64,000 nucleotides of DNA from Planctomycetota bacterium (GTDB lineage Bacteria; Planctomycetota; Planctomycetia; Pirellulales; UBA1268). Location of the stretch: contig JABAAH010000003.1 in assembly GCA_014238855.1 (NCBI GenBank), positions 37,088 through 101,087 on the forward strand, written 5' to 3'. The position numbers and the translations under genes are program-made. Below the pieces are notes generated by a model. The model was not told the origin of the DNA. It saw only the letters and a list, made by a program, of their open reading frames with translations, and did no database searches. Position 1 is the stretch's first letter. Each line of letters opens with the position of its first letter. This document shows positions 54,162-61,389 of the stretch, piece by piece.

Positions 54162-54326
54162 GGGGAAGAGCCTCTTTAAAAGAATTGATACAACACGATA
54201 GCCCTGAACCTAAGACTGCATGATCTTTCCGTCAACGCGCTGGTTTCAGGCCATCAAATCTGCCCTGAAAACATTGATAATACTCAGATTGCGGGAATCG
54301 AGCGGATTATACCGGTGGTGCAGCGT

Positions 54327-54342: not shown

Positions 54343-54410
54343 CAGTTCCCGCGGTATTACGATACAATTTTTGATTGACCAAAAAAAGGTTTTTGAGAGG
54401 CCGAAAAAAA

Positions 54411-55343
54411 ATGCTGCGATTATTTAAGTTCTTTGTTGTTTTTTTGCTGTTTGTGGCGTCCTGGAAAACTTCCCAAGCAACTTCACCCATCCGTGTTGTC
54501 GCTACCACAACAGTAGTTGCTGATTTAGTTGAGCATGTTGGTGGTGATTGTGTTGTAGTCGAAAGTCTCATGGCTGATGGTGTTGATCCCCATTCGTATC
54601 GTGCCACGCCACGAGACATTGACAGGCTTGTTCGCGCGGACCTGATTGTTGCCAACGGACTCCATCTTGAGGGCAAGTTGGCTGAACTCCTTGAACGAAT
54701 AGGTCGTAAGCGTCCTTTTGTAGCTGTTGGCGATGCCGTGCCAAAAACGGAACTTCTTTCCATCGGTAACGAACTCTTTGATCCACATATATGGTTTGAT
54801 GCAAAGCTTTGGAGTTATTGCCCGCCTGCGGTTGCTGAAGCGTTGTCAAAATTGGATGCTGGATCTGCCGAGCAGTACCGGCAGGGTGCGACAAAATACG
54901 CGGCAGAACTTTTAGAACTCGATAGAACGATTCGTCAGAAGTTCAAAAAAATTCCTCGCCAGCATCGAGTGCTGATTACAGCCCATGATGCGTTTCGCTA
55001 TTTCGGTCGAGCTTATGGAATTGAAGTCGTTGGGGTACAAGGAACGAGTACTGAGAGTGAGGCTGGTCTGGCTGATATAAATCAATTGGTCGACATGGTT
55101 GTTGCCCGTCGAATACCTGCGGTATTTGTCGAGACGAGTGTATCTGATCGAAATGTTACAGCGTTGATAGAGGGTGCTGCGGCACGTGGTCATACGGTAC
55201 GTCTTGGTGGGCGGCTGTACTCCGATGCCTTGGGGCCGGTTGGAGGGGGGGGTGATACGCTTAAGCGTGCCTTGCTCTCGAACGTTGATACTATTGTTAA
55301 AGCGCTTCATGTAACGAGCACTCTTCCGGATAGTCTTGAGTAA
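54411..55343 (+). CDS. Metal ABC transporter substrate-binding protein (ZnuA/TroA/MntC family)
   Basis: This periplasmic protein captures Mn2+ or Zn2+ for the importer encoded next. A signal peptide (LFKFFVVFLLFVASWKTSQA) precedes the mature part. The metal ligands are visible: histidine in DGVDPHSYRATP, histidine in FDPHIWFD, glutamate in GTSTESEAGLAD and aspartate in VETSVSDRNV. The set (H, H, E, D) is typical of Mn-type TroA/PsaA proteins, while zinc proteins usually have a third His. The ATG at 54411 has GAGAGG upstream; the track start at TTG 54375 is rejected. First gene of a four-gene operon. Confidence 0.9.
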   Translation: MLRLFKFFVVFLLFVASWKTSQATSPIRVVATTTVVADLVEHVGGDCVVVESLMADGVDPHSYRATPRDIDRLVRADLIVANGLHLEGKLAELLERIGRKRPFVAVGDAVPKTELLSIGNELFDPHIWFDAKLWSYCPPAVAEALSKLDAGSAEQYRQGATKYAAELLELDRTIRQKFKKIPRQHRVLITAHDAFRYFGRAYGIEVVGVQGTSTESEAGLADINQLVDMVVARRIPAVFVETSVSDRNVTALIEGAAARGHTVRLGGRLYSDALGPVGGGGDTLKRALLSNVDTIVKALHVTSTLPDSLE

Positions 55344-55390
55344 CTCGTTTGCCTTCGTGCACGAATGCGTCGGGGAAGGAAAACATCTTC

Positions 55391-56191
55391 ATGGTTGGGA
55401 ATGACTCTGCTTCTGAGGTGCATGCCGATGCACCGATGCTTGAGTGGCATGACCTCACTGTTGCATATGGTCGTCGGCCAGTCTTGTGGAATGTTGATTT
55501 CGAGATTCCCAAGCCTTGCCTTTTTGGCATTATTGGTCCCAATGGCGCGGGGAAGAGTACCCTGCTCAAGGCGAGTTTGGATCTTGTGCAAAGAGCTGGA
55601 GGATGTGTCCGGTTTTGGGGGCAGCCACTTGCTCAGGTTCGTTCAAGAATTGCGTATGTACCCCAAAGAGAAACGGTTGATTGGGATTTTCCAGTGACCG
55701 TTATGGATGTCGTCCGAATGGGGGCAACGTCAAAGTTAGGTTGGTTCCAACGAGGTGGGAAACGTGAACGCGAATTAGCCTTGCATAGTCTTGATCGTGT
55801 TGGGCTCGCTGATTTCTCAAATAGACAGATCGGGAAACTTTCAGGGGGCCAGCAGCAGAGAGTCTTTTTAGCTCGAGCGCTTGCCCGCGAGGCGGAGATT
55901 TACCTGCTTGATGAGCCCATGGCAGGTGTTGATGCTGGGTCGCAAGAGCAGATATTCAACATTCTGGCTACTCTTCGAGATCAAGGGAAACTTATTGTTG
56001 CGGTTCATCATGACATTCGCACGGCTGTTGAATGGTTTGATGCAGTAGCGCTTGTCGATATGCGTCTCGTTGCTGCCGGCCCGACAGCAGAGATTCTTAC
56101 GCCTGAAAACCTCACAATGACATATTCCGGTCGACTGAGTGTTTTGGATGAAATTGGAGAAGCTGTTGAGCGAGGAGGAAGAACATCATGA
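55391..56191 (+). CDS. Metal ABC transporter ATP-binding protein
   Basis: This is the ATPase of the Mn/Zn-type importer, 266 aa from the ATG at 55391 (GGAAGGA upstream). Walker A is GPNGAGKST, the Q-loop region is YVPQRETVDWDFP, the ABC signature is LSGGQQQR, Walker B is EIYLLDEPMAGVD, and the switch histidine is in VAVHHDI. The VDWDFPVTV motif is typical of the ZnuC/MntB subfamily. The 3' end overlaps the first permease gene by 4 bases (ATGA), showing translational coupling. The track start at 55349 is less well supported. Confidence 0.94.
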   Translation: MVGNDSASEVHADAPMLEWHDLTVAYGRRPVLWNVDFEIPKPCLFGIIGPNGAGKSTLLKASLDLVQRAGGCVRFWGQPLAQVRSRIAYVPQRETVDWDFPVTVMDVVRMGATSKLGWFQRGGKRERELALHSLDRVGLADFSNRQIGKLSGGQQQRVFLARALAREAEIYLLDEPMAGVDAGSQEQIFNILATLRDQGKLIVAVHHDIRTAVEWFDAVALVDMRLVAAGPTAEILTPENLTMTYSGRLSVLDEIGEAVERGGRTS

Positions 56192-57135
56192 TCCGCCTGA
56201 GCGTGATCGCGGCCTTCCTCCCCTACAACACACTTGTCGTAGCTGCGGGTGTTGCAGCAGTTGGTTGTGCTGCGGGGGTGATTGGTACGTTTGGAGTTCT
56301 TCGTAAGCGGGCGTTAGTTGGTGATGCGGCGGCTCATGCAACGCTTGTTGGTGTCGCATCCGCTTTGCTCCTGACTGGACAGCGTGATCTCGCTGTTCTT
56401 CTTGTCGGTGGCCTGACTTCAGCAATGGTTGCGATAGTTCTTTTGGTTCTCATTCGAAAGTTCACCCGTACTCGTGATGACGCAGCAATCGCAATCGTAC
56501 TGAGCGTTTCTTTTGGGCTGGGGATTACATTAATTTCTGGAATGGTGTCTCGTGGGATTCCTGGGAGTGGAGGCTTGGAGCGATTTTTACTTGGACACAC
56601 AGCGTCGCTGACGGCCCATGATGCAATCTTGCTTGGGGCTGTTTCCGCTACAAGTGTGTTGTGTATCGTGGTCGGTCTGAAGGAAGCAACAATGGTTGCT
56701 TTTGATCGAGATTTTGCCGCGGCGGCTGGGTGGCCTGCAGCAACAATAGATTTCGTGTTAATTGCTCTTGTTGCGGTGATGGTTGTTGTCGGGTTGCCAG
56801 CAGCAGGTGCGGTCTTGGTGACGGCACTCGTAGTCATTCCGCCAGCAGTTGCCCGTCAGTGGACAGAGCGAATTGTGCCGATGCTGGTCATTGCCGGAAC
56901 TGTTGGACTCGTGAGCTCGCTCTTGGGCGTTGCGATTAGCAGTGTAGCCGTTCAGATACCAACTGGGCCGGTTGTCGTTCTTGTAGCAACATCATTTTTA
57001 ATTTTTTCTGTTTTTCTGGCACCTTGCCGGGGAATCGTATGGCGGGCTAGAGCTACAAGTCTGCTCCCTTCTGCCTGTTGTGAAGAAAAAGATGCCGAGA
57101 CAACTGCCCGTGTAGTGACGGAGCAAAAACTGTGA
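56188..57135 (+). CDS. Metal ABC transporter permease 1
   Basis: This ABC-3-type membrane component (ZnuB/MntC family) is 315 aa with about eight to nine hydrophobic segments. GVIGTFGVLRKRALVGDAAAHATLVGVA is the family's recognisable N-terminal helix with the ATPase-contact loop, and the aspartate in it is conserved. DFAAAAGWPAATIDF and PAAGAVLVTALVVIPPAVAR follow. It overlaps the ATPase gene by 4 bases and the second permease gene by 4, so all three are tightly coupled. The importer thus has two different permeases, as in TroC/TroD. Confidence 0.93.
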   Translation: MIRLSVIAAFLPYNTLVVAAGVAAVGCAAGVIGTFGVLRKRALVGDAAAHATLVGVASALLLTGQRDLAVLLVGGLTSAMVAIVLLVLIRKFTRTRDDAAIAIVLSVSFGLGITLISGMVSRGIPGSGGLERFLLGHTASLTAHDAILLGAVSATSVLCIVVGLKEATMVAFDRDFAAAAGWPAATIDFVLIALVAVMVVVGLPAAGAVLVTALVVIPPAVARQWTERIVPMLVIAGTVGLVSSLLGVAISSVAVQIPTGPVVVLVATSFLIFSVFLAPCRGIVWRARATSLLPSACCEEKDAETTARVVTEQKL

Positions 57136-58424
57136 TCAATCTCGTTGCAGATTCTGCTATCACGCTATGGTTTGATCGGGTAGGCCCATTGCATGGATGG
57201 GCTATAGCAACAGCGGTAGTTGTTTCTGCATGCTGTGCAATCGTTGGCACACTGTTGGTTGTTCGTCAAATGAGCTTGTTGGGTGATGCGATCAGCCATG
57301 CGGTTCTACCTGGGCTTGTTGTAGCGGTACTTTGTGGTGCTCAGCCCGGTGGAGTCGGTGTATTACTTGGGGCTACCGTAGCTGCAATGACTACCGTGTG
57401 GTCCACCCGATTTCTTTTTCGTCACGCGGGGCTTTGGGAAGACGCAAGTGTCGGAGTTGCATTCACAACGCTCTTCGCTGCTGGGGTGTTGCTGATCACC
57501 GTATCAGGTTCTCGGGTTGATCTTGACCCTGGTTGCGTTCTCTACGGTATCCTAGAACTTGTACCCTTTGATACTGTGAGTGTGTACGGGTGGGATCTCC
57601 CAAGGGCTTTTGTATCTGCGTTGTCTGTTCTCGTGCTTATTATTTTTGGTGTTTGGTGCACATGGCGGTGGCAGATTTTTACGGCGTTTGATACTGATGC
57701 TGCAAAAGCAGCTGGAATACCAGTAGGAGGGGTGACATGTGGTCTCCTGATAGGCGTATCACTAGCTACGGTCACCGGGTTTGTCGCGGTCGGTGCGATT
57801 CTTGTCGTTGCCATGCTTGTGGTTCCCGCTGCCGCTGCGGAGCGATTGGTTCACAGGCTCCACCATGCGGTTTGGCTCGCGGTGCTATTTGCAGCCGTAG
57901 GTGCCGTTGGAGGCTATCTTCTTGCATGGAGATTCAGTACCTCCGCCGCGGGGATGATGGCGGTCGTGTTAGGCGTCGAGTATCTCGTTGCTATTCTCAT
58001 TGCACCAGATGATGGCGTAGCGGCTCGACTTGTTTCAAAATTAGTCTATTTGTGGCGAGTGCAAATCGAAGACCGACTGGCGTCACTGTGGAGAGCGGAA
58101 GAATCAAAGCAGTTGGTACAGGAAGGTGGTTTCGCAGGACTTATTAATCGATGGTTATGTGTACGTGGCAAGTTACGAAAAGAAGAAAACGTTTTTGTCT
58201 TAACTCCACAAGGACGAATGCATGCCGAACTCATCGTTCGATCTCATCGATTGTGGGAAACCTGGCTTGGGAAACATGTTGATCTCCCCGTCGATCACCT
58301 TCATCCACCAGCAGAGTGGATTGAACATCATCTTGGAGAGCAAGTAAGAAAACGTATTGAGGATGAACTTGGCAATAAAGATATCGACCCACACGGAAGC
58401 ATGATTCCAAAGGAAAAGCGGTGA
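57132..58424 (+). CDS. Metal ABC transporter permease 2 fused to a DtxR/MntR-like domain
   Basis: The first ~300 residues form the second ABC-3 permease (VVRQMSLLGDAISHAVLPGLVVA, AAKAAGIPVGGV, AILVVAMLVVPAAAAERL). The last ~130 (from about 58041) form a cytoplasmic domain that reads as DtxR/MntR: a degenerate winged helix (VQIEDRLASLWRAEE, VFVLTPQGRMHA), then HRLWE, HPPAEWIEHHLGE and DPHGSMIP. The metal ligands H, E...E-H match MntR (E-x-x-E-H) rather than DtxR (C-x-x-E-H). The domain could sense Mn2+ and adjust transport. No free dtxR gene is nearby. It overlaps permease 1 by 4 bases. Confidence 0.9.
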   Translation: MINLVADSAITLWFDRVGPLHGWAIATAVVVSACCAIVGTLLVVRQMSLLGDAISHAVLPGLVVAVLCGAQPGGVGVLLGATVAAMTTVWSTRFLFRHAGLWEDASVGVAFTTLFAAGVLLITVSGSRVDLDPGCVLYGILELVPFDTVSVYGWDLPRAFVSALSVLVLIIFGVWCTWRWQIFTAFDTDAAKAAGIPVGGVTCGLLIGVSLATVTGFVAVGAILVVAMLVVPAAAAERLVHRLHHAVWLAVLFAAVGAVGGYLLAWRFSTSAAGMMAVVLGVEYLVAILIAPDDGVAARLVSKLVYLWRVQIEDRLASLWRAEESKQLVQEGGFAGLINRWLCVRGKLRKEENVFVLTPQGRMHAELIVRSHRLWETWLGKHVDLPVDHLHPPAEWIEHHLGEQVRKRIEDELGNKDIDPHGSMIPKEKR

Positions 58425-58773
58425 CCCATTTTTTGCTGCTACGCGGTTTTTGCTGCTACGCGGTTTGATTGCGAAGTGTGGAGAGTGATCCTGTGACGCA
58501 TGTTTATTTAAAACGTCTTCAGCAGAACGTTTTTTGCTGACGCATTTATGGAGTCATGATCGACGTATTTGCTATAAACGGTACTTTCCGACAGCTGGAG
58601 ATGCCTGTTTCTGTGATAAAGTGAGATGAGTGGCTGGGTTTATTTGCATACGAAGCCTGATGAGGGTATTCCCGAAGAACACATTGTGTAATTCAGCATG
58701 ACATTGAAACGCAGGTTTGGCTGCCGGTTTTGATGGCACTTCACCCGGAGATACGGGCGGACATGGTGCTGGA
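58425..58773. other. 349-base stretch without a gene, carrying a duplication and possible promoter
   Basis: The stretch begins with the 17-nt duplication, then holds TTTTTTGCTGACG at 58529-58542, a partial echo of that unit, and a TATAAA at 58573-58578 that may be a -10 box for the chemoreceptor gene, though no good -35 is visible. The 58717 TTG-initiated extension of the chemoreceptor ORF overlaps its end. I see no protein or tRNA here. Confidence 0.45.
58430..58463. repeat. Tandem duplication of a 17-nt unit
   Basis: TTTTTGCTGCTACGCGG occurs exactly twice in a row at 58430 and 58447, 5 bases after the permease-MntR fusion stop. A third, diverged copy starts near 58529. Confidence 0.92.
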
Positions 58774-61389
58774 ATGGCTTTTAAAACTCACGCAGTGCAC
58801 GGAAAAATGATGCAACTTGTGAAGGAACGTTCTCCGCGAAATCCAGTACTTATTGCCCTGGTTACGATGTCATTGCTACCCCTTGGGGTTCTTGGTATCG
58901 CGATGTATCAGTCAGCGCTTTCTGCAATTAAGGTCGCTGCATTTCAGCGGGTTGAATTAGCGTCTGATTTGACAGCAAACACTATGAGTCTGGGGTATGC
59001 GGAACTTGCTGCAGAACTTCAGGTGACGGCATCTCTTCCTCGGGTTGAAACCAGTGCCGCTGAGATGATTTCAGGATTCCGTGACTTTCAGGCGAATCCA
59101 TCAGGCGAAGAGAGTGTTCGCACGGGTCTGCTGAGCTATTACGCAGCTATGCTGGACACTGAAGACGATGATCAGAAAGAGAGCGAGAGTAAAGCAGATG
59201 TGTTTGTTAATGAGTTGCAGGGCCCCGGCTTGTTTCTTCACGATCTCTATGTGCGTCAAAATGCAAATAAAACAGATGCGAAAAGTTTACTAGATGATGC
59301 AGGAGATGGGTCGTCGTACTCAGCAGGCCATATTGAACTTCATCCAGTGATGCGGAGCATCAAGGAGAGGTTGAGGCTTTACGACATACTACTCATTGAT
59401 GCGGAGACGCGGAATGTTGTTTACAGTGCAAATAAAGGGCGTGATTTTGGCGCTGGATTTGCTTCTGGATCGTTGCAGAAAAGTGGTCCGGCAGACGCAG
59501 TAGATGCCTTGCTAGATAGTCGTTTGGCTGATGGTTTCACGTGCGTTGACTATATGCCATATGGGCCGGCAGAAAACTCTGTCCTGAGTCTCGCTACATT
59601 GGTTCAGGTTGAGGACGAGGTAGCTGGAGTTTTACTTTTTCTTGTTTCATTTGAGCAATTAGACCAAATAATTTCTAGCAATGGTGTTTCCTCCGGTAGC
59701 GTTTCATACGAAGTGTATGGAGATTCTTGGACACGTGGGTCCGAGGGCAGGTCTACCAAGTTACGGCCACACCTTTTCGTTTCGGATGAAGCGCAGGCAA
59801 AATTTACTGCATTCACAAAGTCAAAAAGCTATTCTCTTCGAAGCGATGAGGAGAGCCGTGGTTTGCTCTGTGCTTCAGCTAAAGTTTCAGTGTGTCCACA
59901 AGCGACTGACTCAGATATTGTCTGGATGCTTGTTGCGACAGTACCTGAAACAGAAGTTATGGCATCAGCGTTTTCAGTAAAGGTATTTGGCCAGACAGTT
60001 TTTGGTGTCACGGCTGTCGCGATCCTTTTGTCAGCCTTCATACTGGCACGACTACTTACGAAGCGACATGCAGAGCAACTACGGCTGGCTGAAATGGTGA
60101 CGAATACATCAGTTCAATTAGTGCAAGCTGATGAAAATCTCCAAGTCGTGTATTCGAATCCGGCTACAGAACAAGCGCTGAAAATGCATCCTCAAATAAG
60201 TGATCAGGAAGCCGGCGGAACGCTCGCAGGATTATTTGGGCAGGTTCCGGAAGATTTTGAATTCATGAAAGACTCAGAGAGTCTTCCGCAGGCTATACAG
60301 ATTCATTGTGGAAGTGAAGAATTAGAACTTCACGTTTCAGCAATTGCAGGCCGCCACGGCGAATTTCTTGGCCCCATGGTTACCTGGAGCATTGTTACAG
60401 AAAAAGCTCGTGCAGCAGACCGTGAGCGTGAACTGTCTTCGCAGGTGATGGCTTCGAAAGAGTCTCTTGAAAAGTCACAGCGAGTCTTGCAACAGGGTGT
60501 TGATTCATTGTCTGGGCTGTTTGAGGCAGCCTCGGCGGGAGACCTCACAAAGGAAGTTTCTCTTGAGGGTAGTGAGCAGCTTGCCACGTTGGGCACAAAC
60601 GCACGAGATATGCTCAAGAATCTTCGTGAAGTTATTTCAAAGATCGCAGCCGCGGCTGAGCAGCACGGTGAGGGGGCGAGAATGATAGCGGACAGTGCTT
60701 CTAGTCTGAGTGAGGGAGCACAAAATCAGGCGGCCGGTATCGAAGAGATTGGTTCTTCAATGGATGAGCTGGCGACTTCAATCGTCGATGTCTCAAGCAA
60801 CGCTGCAAATTGCCAGAAAGAAGCAAATAAGGCAGTGAATCTAGCGCAGGCTGGTAGTCAGGCCGTTCGAGATGCCGTTGACTCTATGAAAGCAATTCAT
60901 AGCTCTTCTGAGCAGATTCGAGACATTATCACGATCATTAGTGATATCACCTCACAAACTAATTTATTAGCATTGAATGCAGCGATTGAAGCTGCACGAG
61001 CGGGCGAACATGGGCTCGGGTTTGCTGTTGTTGCAGAGGAAGTTCGTAAACTAGCCAATCGTACGAGTGAAGCCACTGCGGATATTACGCAGCTTATTAA
61101 TGAATCATCTGCAAGGATTCAAAAGGGAGCATCGTTGTCTGAAATTGTTGGTGGTTCGCTTGAATCGATTGTGACCGCAGCCGATACAACAGCCAACGCA
61201 GTGGGTGAAATCGCTCTGTCAAGTGAATCACAGGCGAGGAATGCAGCAGAGGTGAAGCGGGCAATTTCATCTGTATCGCAGACCATTGAAAGTAATGCAG
61301 CAGCATCAGAAGAACTGGCTGCGAGTTCGGAAGAACTTGGTGCGCAAGCACAAGGTCTCTGGGAATTGGTCAGGCAGTTCAGGCTCTAG
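58774..61389 (+). CDS. Methyl-accepting chemotaxis protein with PAS-like insert
   Basis: This chemoreceptor (871 aa from 58774) has an N-terminal helix ([21 protein letters not shown]), a periplasmic sensor region of about 350 residues, and a second helix ([20 protein letters not shown]). A PAS-like stretch follows ([20 protein letters not shown]), then a HAMP-like piece ([11 protein letters not shown]). The cytoplasmic MCP domain has the conserved hairpin tip [21 protein letters not shown] and [18 protein letters not shown]. The start is uncertain: the track uses a TTG at 58717. No other che gene is near, so the receptor is an orphan. Confidence 0.93.

Follow-up and report, generated by a model that had tools for sequence, protein, structure and literature searches.

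A DtxR/MntR-derived module with a retained metal site and an eroded DNA-binding half on the permeases of bacterial metal importers

The importer operon and its fused permease

The window analysed here is a stretch of 64,000 nt from a planctomycete genome of the order Pirellulales. On its forward strand, four genes encode a metal importer consisting of a substrate-binding protein of the ZnuA/TroA type (positions 54375..55343; Pfam ZnuA, E 6e-72), an ATP-binding subunit (55349..56191; Pfam ABC_tran) and two permeases, from here P1 (56188..57135; 315 aa, Pfam ABC-3) and P2 (57132..58424). The last three genes overlap by 4 bases. The presence of ABC-3, ABC_tran and ZnuA domains in consecutive genes, together with a fold match to PsaC, places the system among the cluster A-I importers with ABC-3 permeases. 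For the ATPase, the best NCBIfam match was a manganese transporter ATPase model, below its cut-off. The substrate-binding protein matched zinc as well as manganese models, every score again lying below cut-off, and reading the metal of the importer from this protein was abandoned for that reason. Upstream of the operon, an operator search returned only one 13-nt imperfect inverted repeat (54241-54273) and a promoter scan gave nothing above chance. Directly 3′ of the importer, the window contains a gene for a large membrane-associated chemotaxis-type receptor (58717-61389, +).

The P2 reading frame (57132-58424, +) starts with GTG and encodes 430 aa with zero internal stops. An ABC-3 membrane domain occupies residues 20-292 (57189..58007; Pfam match at residues 23-289, E 5e-38) and is followed by a tail that a first-pass annotation, made from the letters of the window, had read as a DtxR/MntR-type module. 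Pfam, AlphaFold and Foldseek agree with that reading. The metal-binding and dimerisation domain Fe_dep_repr_C (PF02742) was found at residues 358-427 (58203..58412) with 66.8 bits against a cut-off of 27, whereas the DNA-binding half, Fe_dep_repress (PF01325), was not matched by Pfam in P2 even at E<=1, so that only one of the two profiles proposed for checking the tail recognised it. The three motifs described earlier were all seen, as HRLWE (372-376), HPPAEWIEH for HxxxExxEH (391-399) and DPHGSMIP for DPHGxxIP (419-426). In a phmmer search of the PDB, the top matches of the tail were exclusively repressors of the DtxR/MntR family, and no PDB chain spanning both the permease and the module half was found by sequence.

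Several trivial explanations for this gene were ruled out. An assembly join or frameshift, which the first-pass annotation had considered, is excluded by three congeneric genomes from separate assemblies that share the single-frame fusion at 89, 81 and 68% identity to the P2 of the window. Pfam, phmmer and Foldseek together rule out a chance resemblance of the tail to DtxR/MntR proteins. The fused gene, whole or partial, was present in 34 of 40 genomes of the window's family. Pairwise dN/dS was computed for the window against its two nearest relatives and for those two against each other. The metal domain gave values of 0.03-0.05, the permease 0.05-0.08 and the winged helix 0.12-0.32, and this pattern identifies the tail as selected coding sequence. 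The metal half is thus the part most strongly guarded by selection and the DNA half the least. Lineage-local, pseudogene-like decay was rejected as well, since an eroded DNA half beside a kept metal half recurs in several phyla and strong purifying selection acts on the metal domain. We consider the fusion of an ABC-3 metal permease with a two-domain DtxR/MntR module in P2 to be real and well supported.

Predicted structure of the fused permease

An AlphaFold (AF2) model of the P2 monomer was built on 30 relatives and reached a mean pLDDT of 87. In this model, a helix of residues 296-325 (58017..58106) runs continuously from the last membrane segment into helix 1 of the DtxR fold and contains D314, the ligand equivalent at alignment position 8. 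There follows a degenerate winged helix at residues 326-357 (58107..58202), in which helix 2 of the helix-turn-helix (HTH) is missing, the recognition-helix equivalent spans residues 334-344 and the wing is kept at 348-357, and then the three helices of the metal and dimer domain. No low-confidence linker joins permease and module. In Foldseek comparisons, the front of P2 matched PsaC (7kyp, TMt 0.84-0.89), while the tail matched the manganese repressor DR2539 (8pw0; TMt 0.80, rmsd 1.8 over 129 columns), followed by IdeR, SloR and DtxR.

Retention of the metal site and loss of DNA-recognition residues

For a systematic comparison, 389 DtxR modules were aligned, 98 of them free and 291 fused, with positions numbered after the MntR encoded by the window genome itself. 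The Ser/Thr pair of the recognition helix (positions 40 and 42) was found in 87/98 free MntRs (34/34 and 53/64 in two sets) against a single one of the 291 fused domains; P2 of the window has F and G there. PF01325 was matched in 20/20 stand-alone MntRs, in 0/30 P2 fusions and in 0/9 other fused proteins, while PF02742 was matched in all 59 proteins (20 free controls and 39 fused). On a profile of stand-alone MntRs, the N-terminal half of the fused planctomycete tails scored at most about 10 bits, and the metal half mostly 40-95 bits in the P2 fusions and in the P1-only fusions of loci L111-L116. The P2 tail hence joins the DtxR/MntR family by PF02742 and its conserved ligands, not by PF01325 with the Ser/Thr pair. 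The eroded look of the DNA-binding half, remarked on for the window, is shared by nearly all of the examined fused domains. The same remark had included the alanine at the position equivalent to E11 of MntR; this alanine is present in the P2 tail, yet it is no sign of decay by itself because the stand-alone MntRs of planctomycetes carry lysine there.

The metal site presents the opposite picture. All seven ligand positions of the DtxR type (D/N8, H79, E83, H98, E102, E105 and H106) are occupied in P2 of the window, by D314, H372, E376, H391, E395, E398 and H399. The full set was present in 71 of 92 P2 fusions from Planctomycetota (77%), the window included; within these 92, H79, E83 and H98 were found in 89 and E105 and H106 in every protein. 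It was also complete in 15/29 P2 proteins from a scan of named genomes and in 6/6 P1 proteins of L111-L116. By these ligands, the predicted site is of the DtxR/SloR/DR2539 type (D8, E102, E105 and H106 plus H79, E83 and H98) and not the binuclear site of Bacillus subtilis MntR; the earlier assignment to MntR was correct in that the site is of the glutamate and not the cysteine type. Specificity for Mn2+, which had been proposed from it, is plausible for a site so predicted.

In loci where both permeases are fused, P1 usually has Asp at positions 98 and 102, and the canonical set occurred in 0/63 of these P1 modules. P1 modules share a further residue, Arg34, found in most of them (6/6, 40/63 and 65/75 in the three sets) and in 12/21 Bacillales tails against 0/98 free MntRs. 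The gain of this conserved arginine indicates that their winged helix was reused and is not merely decaying. Trp82 was present in 262 of the 284 fused rows having a residue at that position, against 7/98 free MntRs. It had been considered as a strict marker of fusion and was dropped because it also occurs in 7/64 of the additional free MntRs, mostly from Bacteroidota.

Distribution and ancestry of the fusion

The first-pass annotation had suggested that such fusions may occur elsewhere in the same phylum. In surveys of the window's order and phylum the fusion was common, and it extends far beyond that phylum: named genomes, scanned with P1 fusions as seeds, yielded it in records from Acidobacteriota, Planctomycetota, Verrucomicrobiota, Bacteroidota, KSB1 and Chloroflexota, the Planctomycetota among them being Rhodopirellula, Gimesia and Botrimarina. 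Operon architecture was mapped in about 145 loci. The commonest arrangement, in 57 loci, had both permeases fused, followed by fusion of P1 alone with a short P2 (37 loci) and by a fused P1 with a longer tail on P2 (17 loci), which was a bare winged helix in the cases read. Fusion of P2 only characterises the window's family, where P1 lacks the module, and some other loci; outside this family, relatives also have a fused P1. Some tails have been cut back to the winged helix and others lost.

A free MntR gene was encoded in the flank of 55 out of 103 fusion loci with wide flanks. The window genome likewise encodes an intact MntR as a protein of its own, comprising a DNA-binding, a metal and a FeoA domain. 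The double-permease fusions, the MntR genes beside many operons and the precedent of chlamydial YtgCR discussed below had gone unmentioned in the first-pass annotation.

A related tail was detected in Bacillales. The P1 protein of Bacillus nakamurai (MntC, L220, about 434 aa) and of 20 further Bacillales, i.e. 21 of 81 genomes, carries a homologous tail without ligands. In profile-profile comparison, the B. nakamurai tail matched MntR at 97.4% and the other fused P1 tails at 99.7%. The AlphaFold model of the Bacillus protein contains the expected tail helices, but their Foldseek matches to the MntR/DtxR family were weak (E about 0.5), so that homology rests on the profile comparison. On that basis, Bacillales MntC carries a decayed copy of the module. 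It differs from P2 of the window in that the ligands are lost and the module sits on P1 only, with P2 (MntD type) unfused.

An unrooted tree of 99 modules (132 columns, Trp82 omitted) required just two changes of the label fused or free. One branch (100/89) separated the free MntRs and the fusions on single-permease importers from all P1, P2 and Bacillales modules. This topology would fit a single old capture that gave rise to the P1/P2 type, and possibly another one behind the single-permease type. With so few columns and no root, this reading is suggestive only.

Discussion

The closest known relative of the arrangement is YtgCR (CT069) of the ytgABCD iron importer in Chlamydia, in which an ABC-3 permease is likewise followed by a DtxR-like module within a four-component cluster A-I system. 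This fusion is cleaved, and the released YtgR represses its DNA targets in a metal-dependent manner (PMC5599777; PMC7755916). Our comparison with YtgR is based on these published descriptions. The planctomycete P2 shares with YtgCR the combination of permease and DtxR-like module in one polypeptide; judged by sequence, its module is not competent to bind DNA as YtgR is, and a separate intact MntR is present. The chlamydial module is located on YtgC with YtgD unfused, that of the window on the second permease and those of its relatives often on both. The tail resembles DR2539, SloR, IdeR and DtxR in fold, metal ligand set, dimerisation helices and DPHG motif, but unlike them is anchored to a permease, has an eroded HTH and lacks the FeoA/SH3 domain, which is kept in single-permease fusions such as L128. 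The PsaBC and MntBC manganese importers have the same ABC-3 permease fold (TMt up to 0.89 to PsaC 7kyp), but they form a homodimer from one kind of permease and have no cytoplasmic tail. An appended cytoplasmic ligand sensor, for which feedback by the imported product has been proposed, is found in the C2 domain of MetNI and the regulatory domain of ModBC. Those domains belong to the ATPase subunit and have unrelated folds, whereas in the window the module is repressor-derived and sits on the permease, with inhibition inferred from anatomy. Transinhibition through appended domains is established for ABC importers, including MetNI and ModBC (PMC10710835).

Given a kept metal site, lost DNA recognition, a stiff join and a coexisting repressor, the most likely role of the module is to signal cytosolic metal to the importer. 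The conservation pattern suggests that it is probably a former gene controller which now acts directly on transport. We therefore favour, with a little more belief than doubt, a repressor-derived sensor that has ceased to bind DNA and throttles import once cytosolic metal is sufficient (transinhibition). Under this proposal, a whole two-domain repressor of the MntR type would have been captured long ago by a metal-importer permease and then stripped of DNA recognition, so that what remains on the importer would be a cytoplasmic gauge for metal. At sufficient cytosolic Mn2+, or possibly Fe2+, the metal would occupy the H/E/D site, and the filled module would change conformation or pair. The stiff helix leading to the last membrane helix could relay this change to the interface of permease and ATPase and so slow import, and transcriptional control would be left to the separate MntR. 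Metal binding by the tail, the identity of the metal and the gating step are what we infer. Because both permeases often carry the module in relatives, a pair of sensors could form under one transporter. In the window's family only P2 is fused, which leaves no module dimer within one transporter and would require pairing between transporters or with MntR, or action as a monomer. The altered P1 ligands in double fusions and the missing ones in Bacillales MntC imply that sensing is not universal.

Two functions had been offered for the module at the outset, gating of import and the tying of a DNA-binding domain to the membrane. Erosion of the DNA-binding half favours the former and speaks against the latter. 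A tail that represses the importer operon upon metal binding, whether released by proteolysis or tethered, is what Chlamydia trachomatis YtgCR would predict, given the same domain order, its cleavage and the DNA binding of freed YtgR, and by this analogy the chlamydial fusion, reported as a repressor, counts against the transinhibition reading. For the proteins studied here such a repressor appears quite improbable, as the DNA-recognition residues are gone in 290/291 fused domains, PF01325 is unmatched in the fused proteins searched and the window genome has its own intact MntR. The model also lacks HTH helix 2. Its permease and module are connected by a confident, unbroken helix instead of a floppy linker, which makes proteolytic release less likely. 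Alternatively, the dimerisation helices of the tail could mediate pairing with the stand-alone MntR, which would link the repressor or its metal to transport in the manner of MalK and MalT. The dimerisation and metal half is indeed the best-conserved part, MntR is frequently encoded beside fusion operons, and this scheme would need no more than one module per transporter, which is the situation in the window's family. The lineages of fused modules and of free MntRs are nevertheless separate and differ at conserved positions such as Trp82, and we regard the pairing as rather unlikely.

Unlikely, too, is a purely structural relic whose part is confined to stabilising or assembling the transporter, without any sensing. 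Such a role would suit the tail that Bacillales MntC retains although its ligands are gone, the divergent ligands of P1 modules and the tails shrunk to the winged helix or lost. It fits poorly with the near-invariant ligands of P2 and with purifying selection that is stronger on the metal domain than on the permease.

Returning to direct feedback on transport, a broader version of this reading is possible and is offered tentatively. In ancient Mn/Fe importers of several phyla, a repressor that once switched genes may have become a valve giving direct metal feedback. Often each permease has its own module, with a canonical site on P2 and a site on P1 that is altered but conserved, so that the former dimer would form an asymmetric sensor under the transporter; YtgR would be the exception in which DNA binding was kept or regained. 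The fusion itself is known from YtgCR. New, as far as residues and profiles can tell, is the widespread and often doubled DtxR module on metal-importer permeases that is predicted to be dead for DNA binding; no paper on a fusion outside Chlamydia, or on such a DNA-binding-dead, multi-phylum and often double version, was found in the open-licence literature. If the module gates import, a transcription factor has been turned into a transporter valve, and several phyla would possess a fast, protein-level brake on transition-metal homeostasis besides MntR. In this view, chlamydial YtgCR belongs to a large family of such fusions. The proposal is directly testable, as cultured free-living relatives (Rhodopirellula, Gimesia and Botrimarina) share the architecture. 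For annotation, PF02742 found on a permease should not be read as a sign of a repressor.

Additional observations on individual loci

Among the double fusions, for example in L063-L083, L084, L087-L101 and L103-L106, P2 has the canonical ligands and P1 a conserved altered set (HVDRDAD..EH). P2 tails that lack the metal domain and consist of just the winged helix, as half-relics of the module, occur in L111-L116 (e.g. L112:2127-3302), L193, L202, L214 and L217. In L102, L109, L124 and L125, both permeases have long tails that show little or no detectable trace of the DtxR module, and a free MntR gene adjoins each of them. The MntC-type permeases of Bacillales in L240-L261 are 410-475 aa long and have a DtxR-like tail that is missed by Pfam. 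Importers with one permease gene, fused to the module, are present in L117, L118, L119, L127 and L128; the tail of L128 runs on into a FeoA/SH3-like region, which amounts to a near-complete three-domain regulator in fused form. In L079:1501-4113 (-), a single reading frame of 871 aa comprises both P1 and P2 and may represent a natural tandem fusion of the two permeases. Beside a stand-alone MntR, L008:2050-3138 (+) encodes a 363-aa protein in which no DNA-binding half was recognised; it has a metal domain with the fused-type Trp82 and two FeoA stretches.
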